In this document: one piece after another, positions 4,662 through 11,738 of the stretch
Layout: every line of letters starts with the position of its first letter
How positions within the stretch are numbered: position 1 is the first letter of the stretch
Position numbers and translations under genes: made by a program
Notes under the pieces: model-generated
Seen by the model: the letters and a program-made list of their open reading frames with translations, nothing else
Databases searched by the model: none
What the model was told of the DNA's origin: nothing
Source: an uncultured Gemmatimonadota bacterium
Lineage (GTDB): Bacteria; Gemmatimonadota; Gemmatimonadetes; Gemmatimonadales; GWC2-71-9
Assembly (NCBI GenBank): GCA_913009915.1
Contig: CAJVYZ010000028.1
Coordinates: 1-11,738, forward strand
DNA: 11,738 nt
Direction: 5' to 3'

Positions 4662-5039
4662 ATGACGCTGCTCTACATTCTAATCGGAATACTCGCTGGC
4701 ATACTCTCGGGCCTGTTCGGCATCGGCGGCGGCGTGCTCATCGTCGGCGCCATGGTTGTCCTCCTGCGGGTTCCCATCCTCGAAGCCACCGGGACGTCGC
4801 TTGTCGCTCTGCTCCTCCCGGTAGGCTTACTCGGCGCCATGGAATACTACCGTGCCGGGAACGTGCACCTCGTTCCGGCAGCGTTGATTGCCGGCGGGTT
4901 GTTTCTGGGAACCTGGGTCGGCGCCCGGTGGGCTCACGTGCTGCCGCCGGTGACGCTGCAACGGATGTTTGCGGTGTTTCTATTGGTGATGGCGGTGAGG
5001 CTGTGGCTTAGCGCCAAACCCGACGTCCTACCGCATTGA
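4662..5039 (+). CDS. Half-length TauE/SafE (TSUP) family membrane protein
   Basis: This 125-residue, very hydrophobic protein has about four membrane segments. It begins with ILIGILAGILSGLFGIGGG, followed by ATGTSL and a closing arm VTLQRMFAVFLLVMAVRLW. This matches one repeat of the TSUP fold (TauE/SafE), whose usual members are about 250 residues with two such halves. It would therefore have to dimerise or act as a single-repeat variant; such short members exist. TSUP proteins are linked to export of sulfite or other sulfur anions, and relatives occur beside copper and oxidase genes. Divergence from the SCO-PCu(A)C-CtaG operon suggests a metal or oxidase context, which is an inference. A GGGGAG ribosome site at 4647-4652 sits 9 nt before the ATG. 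The 3' end overlaps the stop of the convergent malate synthase-like gene by 12 nt. No frameshifted second half is visible downstream. Confidence 0.85.
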   Translation: MTLLYILIGILAGILSGLFGIGGGVLIVGAMVVLLRVPILEATGTSLVALLLPVGLLGAMEYYRAGNVHLVPAALIAGGLFLGTWVGARWAHVLPPVTLQRMFAVFLLVMAVRLWLSAKPDVLPH

Positions 5040-6641
5040 CGTCTCGCGCTCGAGCAGAGGTTCCATGCCCTCCTGCGCCACGGTGGCACTGAGCGCTGGG
5101 GCAAGCACCAGACGGTCGAGCAACGAGCGGGCACGATCGAATTCGCCCATGGCCCACACCTCCTCCCCCAAGGCACGGCGAATACTCCCCATCTCGTAGT
5201 CGACCGTGGCGCCGTAGAGCTTCTCGGTGACGGTACGACCGTCATCCAGTCGGGCCTGGCACCGAATCCAATGCCACAACTGGGCCCTGGCCACCTCCAC
5301 CATGGCCAAGGTGGTTTGATCGTGGCGCACGGGAAGACAGCCCACACCCCTGAGCCATGCCTCCAGGTACCGGAGGGATACCCGGACACAATGGCGCACC
5401 CCAGCCTCGGTCACCGGGCCATCGGGGAATGTCAGCAAGTCCTTGGCCCGCGGACGCATGTAGCTCATGGCACCCTGAGGCGTGCGCCGGCCCGACCAGC
5501 GTGACTCGAACACTCCCATCGCCACCCGGACGAAATCGGGGTGTCCGACACGACTCCCGTCGAAGCCGCCGTCGGCCTCCCGCGTCTTGTCCGCCACCAG
5601 ACGCGCCATGGCCACCCGGTCGGCGATGGGATCGGACGGGATCGGTACCTGGGTCGACGTCACCCCGATGACCGGGACGCCCCGGCGGTGGCCAATCTGA
5701 ACGACGAGCATGCTGACCGCTTCGAGGAAATGGCGCTCCATGGTAACCAGACTGGTGTCAGGCATGAGGAAGCCGCCTCGGCCCCCGAAAGCACGCACAA
5801 AACTGAAGACGTAGTTCCACCGGTCACACACCAGACCCGCGGCTCGTTCGCGGAGTTCATAGAGCATCTCCTCCACCTCGAACGCTCCCGTGATACTGTC
5901 GACCACGAGGGACGTCCGGATGGAAGCTTCCGGCAAGCCGAGGATCGACTCAGCCAGCTGAAGCACCTCGTGCCACCAGCGCGCCTCCAGCCGACCTTCC
6001 ACCCCACCGAGGGAAACGAATGGACCGCAGCGATGCTGGTGCAGGTGTTCGGCGTTGTGGAACAGGAACAGACCAATGTCGAGCAGGCTGGCGCTCACGG
6101 GTTCGTCATCGACGGACAACCGGGACTCGACCAGGTGGATGCCTCGCGGTTGCAGCATCAGGGCGGCCGCAACCGGCGCCAGTTCCACTTCGCGTCCATC
6201 GGGAGCTTGGTAGGCGATCGTGCCGCGAACGGCGTCGCGCACGTGCCGTTGGCCGAGGAGGAGGGACTCCCAGGTTGGTGAGGTGGCGCTGTCGAGATCG
6301 GCCACGTAGACGTCGGCCCGGGAGTACAGGCCGGCCATGAGTGACTCCCGGTCCACCGATCCGACACACTCCATCCGCCGGGCGTTGAGACCCGGCGGTG
6401 GCGGCGGCGTCATCCACGAACCGGCCCTGATGGGTCGTGTCTGGTCAGCGAATCCGGGACGGCCGCCAGCCTGGTACGCCGCGTGCACCTCCGCCCTGCG
6501 GTCCATGAGTTCGCGCCGCCTGCCCTCGAAACTTCGCTGCAGATCGGCCACGAACCGTAACGCTGCGGGCGTGAGGATCTCCTCGCTCCCTTCTACGGGA
6601 GCGCCACTCACGACAATGCCTTCGCCGGCCAAATGAGCCAC
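5028..6641 (-). CDS. Malate synthase A homologue with altered active-site residues
   Basis: The 537-residue protein matches the layout of malate synthase A along its whole length: an early EILTPAALRF, then SPTWESLLLGQRHVRDAVRG, RGIHL with the conserved Arg166, a central barrel signature, GVGCLPV, and a C-terminal ARAQLWHW. The family condenses glyoxylate with acetyl-CoA in the glyoxylate shunt. The signature normally read as GLNCGRWDYIFS is GLVCDRWNYVFS here, so the metal-ligand Asp is Asn276. The metal-ligand Glu 28 residues earlier is Asp248. The catalytic-base Asp of the usual MEDAAT motif is Thr444. Codons were read from both flanks and are unambiguous. Family identity is firm, but malate synthase activity is doubtful. 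GTG 6641 is chosen for its AGGAGG ribosome site; a start at 6692 would add 17 unmatched residues. No isocitrate lyase gene lies nearby. The gene follows the POT transporter gene by 122 nt on the same strand. Confidence 0.85.
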   Translation of the reverse strand: MAHLAGEGIVVSGAPVEGSEEILTPAALRFVADLQRSFEGRRRELMDRRAEVHAAYQAGGRPGFADQTRPIRAGSWMTPPPPPGLNARRMECVGSVDRESLMAGLYSRADVYVADLDSATSPTWESLLLGQRHVRDAVRGTIAYQAPDGREVELAPVAAALMLQPRGIHLVESRLSVDDEPVSASLLDIGLFLFHNAEHLHQHRCGPFVSLGGVEGRLEARWWHEVLQLAESILGLPEASIRTSLVVDSITGAFEVEEMLYELRERAAGLVCDRWNYVFSFVRAFGGRGGFLMPDTSLVTMERHFLEAVSMLVVQIGHRRGVPVIGVTSTQVPIPSDPIADRVAMARLVADKTREADGGFDGSRVGHPDFVRVAMGVFESRWSGRRTPQGAMSYMRPRAKDLLTFPDGPVTEAGVRHCVRVSLRYLEAWLRGVGCLPVRHDQTTLAMVEVARAQLWHWIRCQARLDDGRTVTEKLYGATVDYEMGSIRRALGEEVWAMGEFDRARSLLDRLVLAPALSATVAQEGMEPLLERETSMR

Positions 6642-6647
6642 CGACCC

Positions 6648-6653
6648 CCTCCT
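6648..6653 (-). promoter_or_regulatory. Ribosome binding site deciding the GTG start of the malate synthase-like gene
   Basis: AGGAGG on the minus strand lies 6 nt before the GTG at 6641. It is a near-consensus site at ideal spacing and favours this start over the in-frame start at 6692. Confidence 0.8.
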
Positions 6654-10372: not shown

Positions 10373-11044
10373 ACAGCAGTTGGGGAACAGCAGTTGGTCG
10401 CTCAGTCGGTTGAGAGCACGCCGCGCCTGGGTGAAGCGCTCGGCGGCCGCACGGAACACCGGCTCGAGTCCCAGGCGGTCGGCCAACTCGTGGTCCGAGG
10501 CCATTTGGTACCCTCGTTGCCCCAGGAGTTCGTAATATTCGATGCCGGGACCACCCTTCCGCAACCGCCGTGCGGCGATATAGTCGGGGAAAACACCGAC
10601 CAGCCACAAGGCGTAGTTGCCTAGGTGGACCATGACCTTGAACCGGCGGCTGCCGCTGCTCAGGTTGAGATCGTCGAGGATGTCGACAACATATTGGTGG
10701 CGGTGGTCGTCGTTCCAGTCGATGCGCCAGGCACGGTCCCGGCGCCCAAATTCGAGGAGCATGGCGGCGAGATAGTCCGCCAGGTCGCGATCGTCCGTTC
10801 CCGTACCCCGCAGGAGGTGCCGCACGGCGACGTAATAGAACAGGGCGGGTGACGGCAGCAACATGCCGCGGACCGCCACGAGTCGCTCGAACAACTCGGG
10901 ATGATCCAGCAGGGCGTCGATCCCCTCCTGGTCCAGTTGACGTTCGACCCGAGCCCGGGTCACTGCCGACCCCCGACTCAAGAGGAGGATGACCAGCTGC
11001 CGGTCGTTGGCTGACAGGCGGCTTCTAGTATCCGCGAGAATCAT
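10331..11044 (-). CDS. Hypothetical protein, 237 residues, not recognised
   Basis: I do not recognise this family. The protein is probably soluble. It is helix-rich, with an N-terminal RLSANDRQLVILLLSRG segment and a central aromatic-rich part (SPALFYYVAVRHLLRG, RIDWNDDHRHQYVVDILDDL, HLGNYALWLVGVFPDYIAARR). A C-terminal helical tail (ELADRLGLEPVFRAAAERF) precedes the LLFPNCCSPDRIL end. ATG 11044 is preceded at 6 nt by an AAAGGAGGT-type ribosome site; starts further upstream (to 11260) would run antisense through the GAF-PAS gene. The gene is head to head with that GAF-PAS gene, the two ATG codons sharing CATG, and it overlaps the PuuD-like gene tail to tail by 42 nt. A 14-bp tandem duplication in the tail changes the C-terminal reading frame. 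The pairing with a sensor hints at a signalling role, which is only inference. Confidence 0.85.
   Translation of the reverse strand: MILADTRSRLSANDRQLVILLLSRGSAVTRARVERQLDQEGIDALLDHPELFERLVAVRGMLLPSPALFYYVAVRHLLRGTGTDDRDLADYLAAMLLEFGRRDRAWRIDWNDDHRHQYVVDILDDLNLSSGSRRFKVMVHLGNYALWLVGVFPDYIAARRLRKGGPGIEYYELLGQRGYQMASDHELADRLGLEPVFRAAAERFTQARRALNRLSDQLLFPNCCSPDRILRELEGPA
10370..10397. repeat. 14-bp tandem duplication at the convergent gene overlap
   Basis: TGAACAGCAGTTGG (10370-10383) is followed directly by GGAACAGCAGTTGG (10384-10397), identical at 13 of 14 positions. The first unit begins with the TGA stop of the PuuD-like gene. Since 14 is not a multiple of three, the duplication shifts the frame of the minus-strand gene: with one copy its tail would read LLFTRSHSP and stop about 20 bp earlier. 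Confidence 0.85.
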
Positions 11045-11660
11045 GACCGAACCTCCTTTCCCACCGTCCACCGAAGCCGTGGACATGGAAGCTACCGTGC
11101 AGGAATTGCGCCGTATCGCAGAATTCTCCCGGGCCGTGGCCGCGGCGGCAGCTCCCGCCGCCGTGATCGACCTGCTGTGGCAACAACTTGCGGGTTGGTA
11201 CCCCACCTGCGAGCGCGCCATCGCCCGGTACCAGGAGGACTCCGCCGACCCGGAGATCATTCACACGTCAGGTCCAAGCGCCTCGCGTGCCATCGAGCAG
11301 AACACCGGGGGGATCCCGGGGGCGACCGCCGGAATCAGCGGGCCGCAGGGCGCGGTGCTCGAGGGCTCGCTCGTCGTCCTCGGCCGGCGCCGTGGGCTGG
11401 TGGCGGTCGCCAGCCCAGGGACCCGATTCACGCCCTACGACGTAGATGTGTTGGACATCCTGTTGAACGCAACGGTCAACGCCCTGGCCAATCTCGGGCG
11501 GTACGGCGCGAGCGGCCAGGCGACCTGGGACCTCACCGTCGACGCCGTCCCTACCGCGCTGTGCACCGTGGCGGGCGACGGCCGTGTCCAGCTCACCAAC
11601 CGCGCCTTCACTGATCTGATCGGCCGATCGCGCAGCGACATCGCGGGGGAACGGTGGACC
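11043..11660 (+). CDS. GAF-PAS signalling protein, probably a sensor kinase N-terminus (3' truncated by contig end)
   Basis: The 206 genuine residues contain a GAF-like domain at about 20-153 (helix LRRIAEFSRAVAAAAAPAAVIDLL, then a strand core including GSLVVLGRRRGLVAVAS and the closing TPYDVDVLDILLNATVNAL). A PAS domain begins at about 160 (VDAVPTALCTVAGDGRVQLTNRAF) and is cut off at IAGERWT. This order is common in sensor histidine kinases, diguanylate cyclases and other multidomain regulators; the output domain is not in the window. Signal ligands are unknown. The ATG at 11043 is provisional: its ribosome site is weak, GTG 11079 and ATG 11085 are alternatives, and ATG 10989 has AGAGGAGG abutting it with no spacing. 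The apparent extension RSEEHTSELQSH beyond 11660 is translated sequencing adapter and is not part of the protein. The unknown gene lies head to head with it. Confidence 0.75.
11051..11059 (-). promoter_or_regulatory. Strong ribosome binding site of the unknown 237-residue protein
   Basis: AAAGGAGGT on the minus strand, nearly the full anti-16S complement, ends 6 nt before the ATG at 11044. It fixes that start. The same bases are codons 3-6 of the opposing GAF-PAS gene if the latter starts at 11043. Confidence 0.85.
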
Positions 11661-11738
11661 AGATCGGAAGAGCACACGTCTGAACTCCAGTCACACTGAT
11701 ATATCTCGTATGCCGTCTTCTGCTTGAAAAAAAAAAAA
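11661..11738 (+). other. Illumina TruSeq adapter with index, plus poly-A read-through (contamination)
   Basis: From 11661 the sequence is the TruSeq indexed adapter: AGATCGGAAGAGC onward through 11694, the index ACTGATAT at 11695-11702 (as in TruSeq index 25), and the constant ATCTCGTATGCC...CTGCTTG end at 11703-11726. Twelve A residues (11727-11738) follow, as produced when a read runs past the end of a short insert. This is non-biological and should be trimmed. Confidence 0.98.

Follow-up and report, generated by a model that had tools for sequence, protein, structure and literature searches.

A malate synthase A-like protein family of Gemmatimonadota lacking the metal ligands and the catalytic arginine, probably a pseudoenzyme

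The window, by which we mean the whole stretch of 11,738 nucleotides analysed here, carries a gene for a divergent homologue of malate synthase A (MSA). Its features are listed in Table 1. A gene for a POT peptide transporter in the same orientation precedes it by 122 bases, and a TauE gene stands tail-to-tail with it. The order of genes around the MSA-like gene is kept over about 7 kb in a congeneric genome. These neighbours were considered as a clue to operon structure and function, yet no functional link follows from them. The reading frame is open from the GTG at 6641 to a TAG stop and, as the original prediction had stated, a strong ribosome-binding site precedes the start. Scans for a promoter and a terminator at the gene yielded nothing convincing.

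Three further observations concern the rest of the window. The TauE/SafE protein (positions 4662-5039) has only 125 aa and matches its profile from 129 to 237 of 237, that is, in the second half alone; it is a half-length transporter. Genes for CtaG, PCuAC and SCO1/SenC follow in a row between 2619 and 4655; this copper/cytochrome oxidase assembly cluster is syntenic in the congener. At the contig end, positions 11661-11738 consist of an adapter, which we take to be of Illumina type, with an index and poly-A, and frames that extend into it, such as those at 10989-11699 (forward strand) and 11435-11737 (reverse strand), end in this artefact.

Table 1. Features of the MSA-like gene. Positions are those of the window; residues of the window protein carry its own numbering, and the residues that they replace are numbered as in E. 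coli MSA, or as in malate synthase G (MSG) where this is named.
Feature	Positions	Strand	Remarks
Putative pseudo-malate synthase A gene	5028..6641	-	537 aa, GTG start; PF01274/PF20659/PF20656 matches, TIGR01344 467.7 bits
AGGAGG ribosome-binding site	6648..6653	-	six bases 5' of GTG; read from sequence
N-terminal arm, residues 8-57	6471..6620	-	conservation 0.678 vs 0.371-0.470 in 100 matched Gemmatimonadota MSA sets
Codons C92-V93, replacing I94-T95 of the acetyl-CoA pocket	6363..6368	-	clade vs canonical rows
Codon Q164, replacing the catalytic Arg (E. coli MSA R166, MSG R338)	6150..6152	-	Q in 12/12 clade rows, R in 140/140 canonical rows
Codon D248, replacing metal ligand E250	5898..5900	-	D in 13/13 clade rows, E in 140/140 canonical rows
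Codon D273, replacing Gly 275 of the GRWD glyoxylate loop	5823..5825	-	D in 13/13 clade rows, G in 140/140 canonical rows
Codon N276, replacing metal ligand D278	5814..5816	-	N in 11, S in 2 of 13 clade rows; D in 140/140 canonical rows
Codon R364, replacing active-site Trp 365	5550..5552	-	R in 13/13 clade rows, W in 140/140 canonical rows
Codon T444, replacing catalytic base D447	5310..5312	-	T in 9, D in 4 of 13 clade rows
C-terminal helices, residues 457-512	5106..5273	-	conservation 0.743 vs 0.324-0.468 in 100 matched Gemmatimonadota MSA sets

The window protein matches all three Pfam malate synthase domains, and its alignment with the solved MSAs 3cux and 3cuz spans the full length, in agreement with the prediction of a full-length homologue. 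An AlphaFold model superposes 521 residues on 3cv2_A at 1.6 Å. The model was confident with canonical sequences in the alignment (pLDDT 90.8) and poor when built from ten sequences of the protein's own clade alone (pLDDT 58.6), so the MSA fold is predicted to be kept on the strength of homology and the mixed-alignment model. In other respects the protein departs from MSA. It possesses the N-terminal, barrel and C-terminal domains but lacks the Mg2+ ligands, the catalytic Arg and the base Asp, and its TIGR01344 score is below the curated cut-off of 594.5 bits. So are the scores of all ten clade proteins scanned, of which P0006 was the highest (569.3) and four further members ranged from 445.6 to 517.4. 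By comparison all four canonical MSAs scanned, including those of the congener and of E. coli, passed with 792.5-831.5 bits.

The clade was delimited by a protein search with the window protein, in which the best 120 of 2795 matches contained 11 further sequences at 57-96% identity, followed by a gap to 48% or less. The congeneric genome contributed one more member, at the single locus found by a scan of genome contigs. The 13 rows set a minimum for the size of the clade and stand for about 12 lineages, P0001 being nearly identical to the congener's copy. P0006 and the congener's copy, the members with a named source, both belong to Gemmatimonadota. Duplicates of the window and congener sequences (L001 and L035) were removed from all row sets.

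In searches of genomes, members turned up only in that of the window and in the one congener. With P0006 as query, 42 of 102 genomes of the same family gave a match and only those of the window and the congener exceeded 51% identity; with P0011, 2 of 288 genomes of the order matched at E 1e-170; and in a draw from the phylum 74 of 395 genomes matched, only the window's own above 45% identity (the congener is absent from the matches listed, presumably because it was not drawn). Fourteen low-scoring loci in other relatives (L036-L047, L049 and L050) were examined as possible members. Thirteen are malate synthase types or pieces that keep the catalytic motifs where covered, none of them in the clade, and L045 is a weak match without catalytic motifs, likewise not a member. 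Weak or partial matches in G008, G012 (contig C38), G061, G086, G091, G125, G154, G194 and G197 lay outside that inspection. Among the inspected loci, those from eight genomes of the same family (L036-L043) represent another divergent malate synthase type (ES/EAHP, GRWDY, GYMED) with complete catalytic motifs, which is the sole PF01274 match in those genomes. A third type of malate synthase-like protein, marked by EQLEA, GRWDYINS and LYLMED, occurs in three genomes (L044, L046, L047) and keeps the metal and base motifs.

Active-site residues were counted in the 13 clade rows and in 140 canonical rows, and canonical positions are numbered as in E. coli MSA, from the K-12 gene. The original prediction had placed D248, N276 and T444 at the positions of the metal-binding Glu, the metal-binding Asp and the catalytic base, and these residues indeed match E250, D278 and D447. 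D447 has been described as the base of MSA (PMC3112382). An hhalign comparison of E. coli MSG with the MSA family equates R338, E427, W534 and D631 of MSG with R166, E250, W365 and D447 of MSA. The same alignment is out of register at D455 of MSG, so the assignment of D278 relies on the common 28-residue spacing and on the RWDY signature. The predicted spacings (28 residues from 248 to 276, nine from Cys435 to 444) and drifted motifs (GVTST for GGMAA, RVGHPDF for WVAHPGL) were found as well. Because every clade row has Asp and every canonical row Glu at the position of D248, neither chance nor read error accounts for this residue. The suggestion that the D/N/T set is common to an orthologous clade was borne out at the two metal positions, the second with Asn or Ser; loss of the base applies to the window protein and eight other rows, and not to the family as a whole.

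The losses go beyond those first listed, extending to R166 (now Q164; counted in 12 rows, as one fragment does not reach the site), G275 (D273), W365 (R364) and residues of the acetyl-CoA pocket. The Trp lies beside the aldehyde carbon of glyoxylate, W365 being its MSA counterpart, and two backbone amides hold the glyoxylate carboxylate (both as described in PMC3112382); Gly 275 would just precede these amides. Malyl-CoA lyase has a second-shell residue pair (PMC3832036), of which E119 and D120 may be the counterparts. The position of E119 is Asp in 11 of 12 clade rows, and that of D120 is Gly or Ser in seven of 12 and still Asp in three. Six positions of E. coli MSA have been named at the acetyl-CoA site: I94, T95, G96, M102, M330 and P369 (PMC3112382). 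Four are replaced in every covering clade row (I94, T95 and M102 in 11 of 11, M330 in 13 of 13), while G96 (11 of 11) and P369 (12 of 13) are kept.

In a tree of 110 rows the 11 full-length members were split off by a branch with SH-aLRT support of 100 and a length of about 1.0 change per site. Left out of it were the two duplicates, the fragments P0005 and P0010, P0071-P0120, and L044-L047, L049 and L050. This was a quick tree, in which monophyly holds if the root lies outside the group, as midpoint rooting gives; five clade rows have an unusual composition and the branch of P0007 is long. The neighbour of the clade was P0023, a canonical MSA from Gemmatimonadota (support 91), a placement that is less certain than the grouping itself. 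Judged from the sequences, the clade is one family in which the losses had one origin. The four rows with an intact base (P0006, P0008, P0009 and P0011) fall outside a group of seven rows (support 99) to which the window protein and P0007 belong. For this reason the metal site and the catalytic Arg were probably lost before the base.

Does the host still possess a normal malate synthase? A second MSA was not found in the window's genome, an assembly of 676 contigs that is 76.5% complete. It does contain isocitrate lyase, on contig C35, and one CitE-like PF03328 match. The congener (G001) has a canonical MSA with complete motifs that adjoins isocitrate lyase, and also carries the MSA-like gene; it is the one host in which the two were seen together. 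The check proposed with the original prediction, a search for a canonical MSA and isocitrate lyase, thus found the latter in the genome itself and the former only in a genome of the same genus. On C35 (L076, 1-1332) sequence that by eye is presumably MutL-like runs in one open frame into isocitrate lyase, which sets in at the equivalent of E. coli residue 154. Similarity to the congener starts at 497, placing the join at about base 496. C35 looks like a chimeric join, and if so the assembly would simply lack the stretch in which the canonical MSA is to be expected. We infer that the window's host also has the normal malate synthase of the glyoxylate shunt.

Between the window gene and the congener's copy there are 46 nonsynonymous and 76 synonymous changes (dS 0.205), giving a dN/dS of 0.194 for this one pair. 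Six flanking genes gave 0.104-0.446 in the same comparison. A share of 46 in 122 changes differs from the neutral nonsynonymous share of 0.74, which we set from site counts, with p 4e-17 (binomial test). The gene thus appears, from one pair, to be under purifying selection. Together with the kept gene order and the single clade, this upholds the original view that the gene is not in simple decay.

The distribution of conservation along the protein differs from that of active malate synthases. We defined a catalytic face from the strand ends of the predicted model, taking the last two residues of its eight strands and the next four, with lid positions from 435 to 444, to give 56 positions. Conservation was tested in seven deep clade rows (mean identity 0.62) or in 11 full rows, P0005 and P0010 being excluded. 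In the deep rows 18 of the 56 face positions were invariant as against 116 of 349 elsewhere (odds ratio 0.95), and in the full rows 18 of 56 against 112 of 349 (1.00). The five canonical sets closest in identity among 400 drawn had 41-48 of 56 against 134-143 of 349 (4.2-8.6). Expressed as pairwise identity, the excess conservation of the face was 0.007 in the clade, compared with 0.221-0.300 in 60 canonical samples and 0.192-0.275 in 100 matched sets of Gemmatimonadota MSA. Eight rows of the other divergent malate synthase family, whose motifs are complete, gave 0.232 (mean identity 0.69, unmatched).

The reverse holds for the two ends of the protein (Table 1). Within the C-terminal helices, residues 473-505 reach 0.798 in the clade versus 0.216-0.410 in the 100 matched sets. 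The other divergent family, again unmatched, also shows some conservation of the N-terminal arm and the C-terminal domain, though it remains below the clade throughout (0.58 in the N-terminal arm, 0.499 in residues 457-512 and 0.455 in residues 473-505). In addition, the clade has a C-terminal tail of the type LLExExSxR that extends past the end of MSA. By these measures conservation has moved from the catalytic face to the N-terminal arm and the C-terminal helices, a pattern that fits a loss of catalysis combined with the gain of a binding surface.

Pseudoenzymes are known as catalytically dead relatives of enzymes that are retained as regulators or scaffolds. The present family descends from an enzyme family, has lost catalytic residues across its orthologues and, as far as one pair can tell, is maintained by selection. 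We suggest that it started from a copy of MSA in an ancestor of some Gemmatimonadota. Along the long stem branch this copy would have parted with its Mg2+ ligands, with the catalytic Arg and the active-site Trp, and with much of its acetyl-CoA pocket; the base would have gone later, in one sub-branch. The protein, still with the MSA fold, would most likely be non-catalytic and serve as a scaffold or regulator, its N-terminal arm and C-terminal helical domain forming the surface that binds a protein partner. A neofunctionalised pseudoenzyme that has no malate synthase activity and binds a partner through its ends is the best reading of the sequences and, we think, rather probable. It was already among those first proposed, and the absence of the catalytic Arg from 12 of 12 covering rows makes it stronger. 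We put forward only tentatively the fuller picture in which selection, across the whole family, has come to act on a new surface at the ends rather than on the barrel pocket, so that the fold binds another protein and places an arginine near the old Mg2+ site; the partner might perhaps be active malate synthase or isocitrate lyase.

The main alternative is a retooled enzyme, in line with the changed chemistry that the original prediction had allowed for. Its pocket would have been rebuilt on D248, D273, R364, R439 and Q164, with arginines replacing Mg2+, and its substrate would be something other than glyoxylate plus acetyl-CoA. All five residues are invariant in the covering clade rows; the first three and Q164 are absent from the 140 canonical rows and R439 is rare among them. 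Both charges are present, and the base Asp persists in four of 13 rows. The five make up the share of the 21 clade-specific invariant residues that lies on the face, a mild excess (hypergeometric p 0.057) that leaves room for this explanation. We nevertheless regard it as unlikely, since the face is no better conserved than the rest of the protein, quite unlike active sets, and positions 276 (Asn or Ser) and 444 (Thr or Asp) vary.

A ligand sensor, binding a small acid or a CoA ester without turnover, is improbable. The fold and the equivalents of G96 and P369 are kept, but the other four named acetyl-CoA positions are replaced, which weakens the earlier idea of a regulatory CoA-binding protein. 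Binding of some ligand by the face is possible, because its 18 positions invariant in the deep rows include polar ones (among the 18 are Q164, R166, D248, D273, R274, R364, H367, R439 and H440); this weighs against the main reading.

That the protein is still a malate synthase is very unlikely. Asp in place of Glu and Asn in place of Asp can in principle bind metal, so D248, D273 and N276 might form a degenerate metal site, and the window's assembly offers no second MSA. Against this highly improbable explanation, the catalytic Arg, the Trp and the base have changed as well, and the congener has a canonical MSA; where this gene would be expected in the window's genome there seems to be a chimeric contig break. 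In MSG the activity of D631N was unmeasurable and that of R338K was 6.6% (PMC3112382), and PMC3832036 describes the metal Glu and Asp as absolutely conserved among malate synthases and CitE-like enzymes. Lastly, decay of a gene copy or an artefact of assembly is conceivable in a fragmented MAG with at least one chimeric-looking contig. It is scarcely credible given the occurrence of 11 more such proteins in four source collections, the dN/dS of the pair, the open frame and a gene order shared with a second genome across about 7 kb.

Malate synthase is a textbook enzyme, and one selected family that drops the metal pair and the Arg while keeping the fold would be a clean case of an enzyme turned to another use. 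The order of the losses is readable, probably metal site and Arg first and base later. There is also a risk for annotation. Four of the 11 proteins found are labelled 'malate synthase' by one source, and such labels may credit genomes with a glyoxylate-shunt enzyme on false grounds. A search of the full-text literature, which is a weak test, returned neither a malate synthase pseudoenzyme or inactive paralog nor a malate synthase-like protein of this kind from Gemmatimonads.

In MSA (aceB; TIGR01344; PDB 3cuz, 3cux, 3cv2) the metal ligands, the Arg and the Trp are intact, whereas in the clade they are replaced; the window protein also lacks the base, four of six CoA-site residues are replaced in the clade, its scores fall below the TIGR01344 cut-off and its conservation is shifted to the ends. 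As described in PMC3832036 and PMC3112382, the Glu/Asp metal pair and the Arg are also kept in malate synthases G and H and in CitE-like lyases such as malyl-CoA lyase; the clade has neither. According to PMC3832036 the metal pair and the Arg are conserved across malate synthases and CitE-like enzymes, and for the base one exception is described. The family also resembles pseudoenzymes in general, with which it appears to share a conserved fold, lost catalytic residues, purifying selection and an active homologue, here in the congeneric genome.
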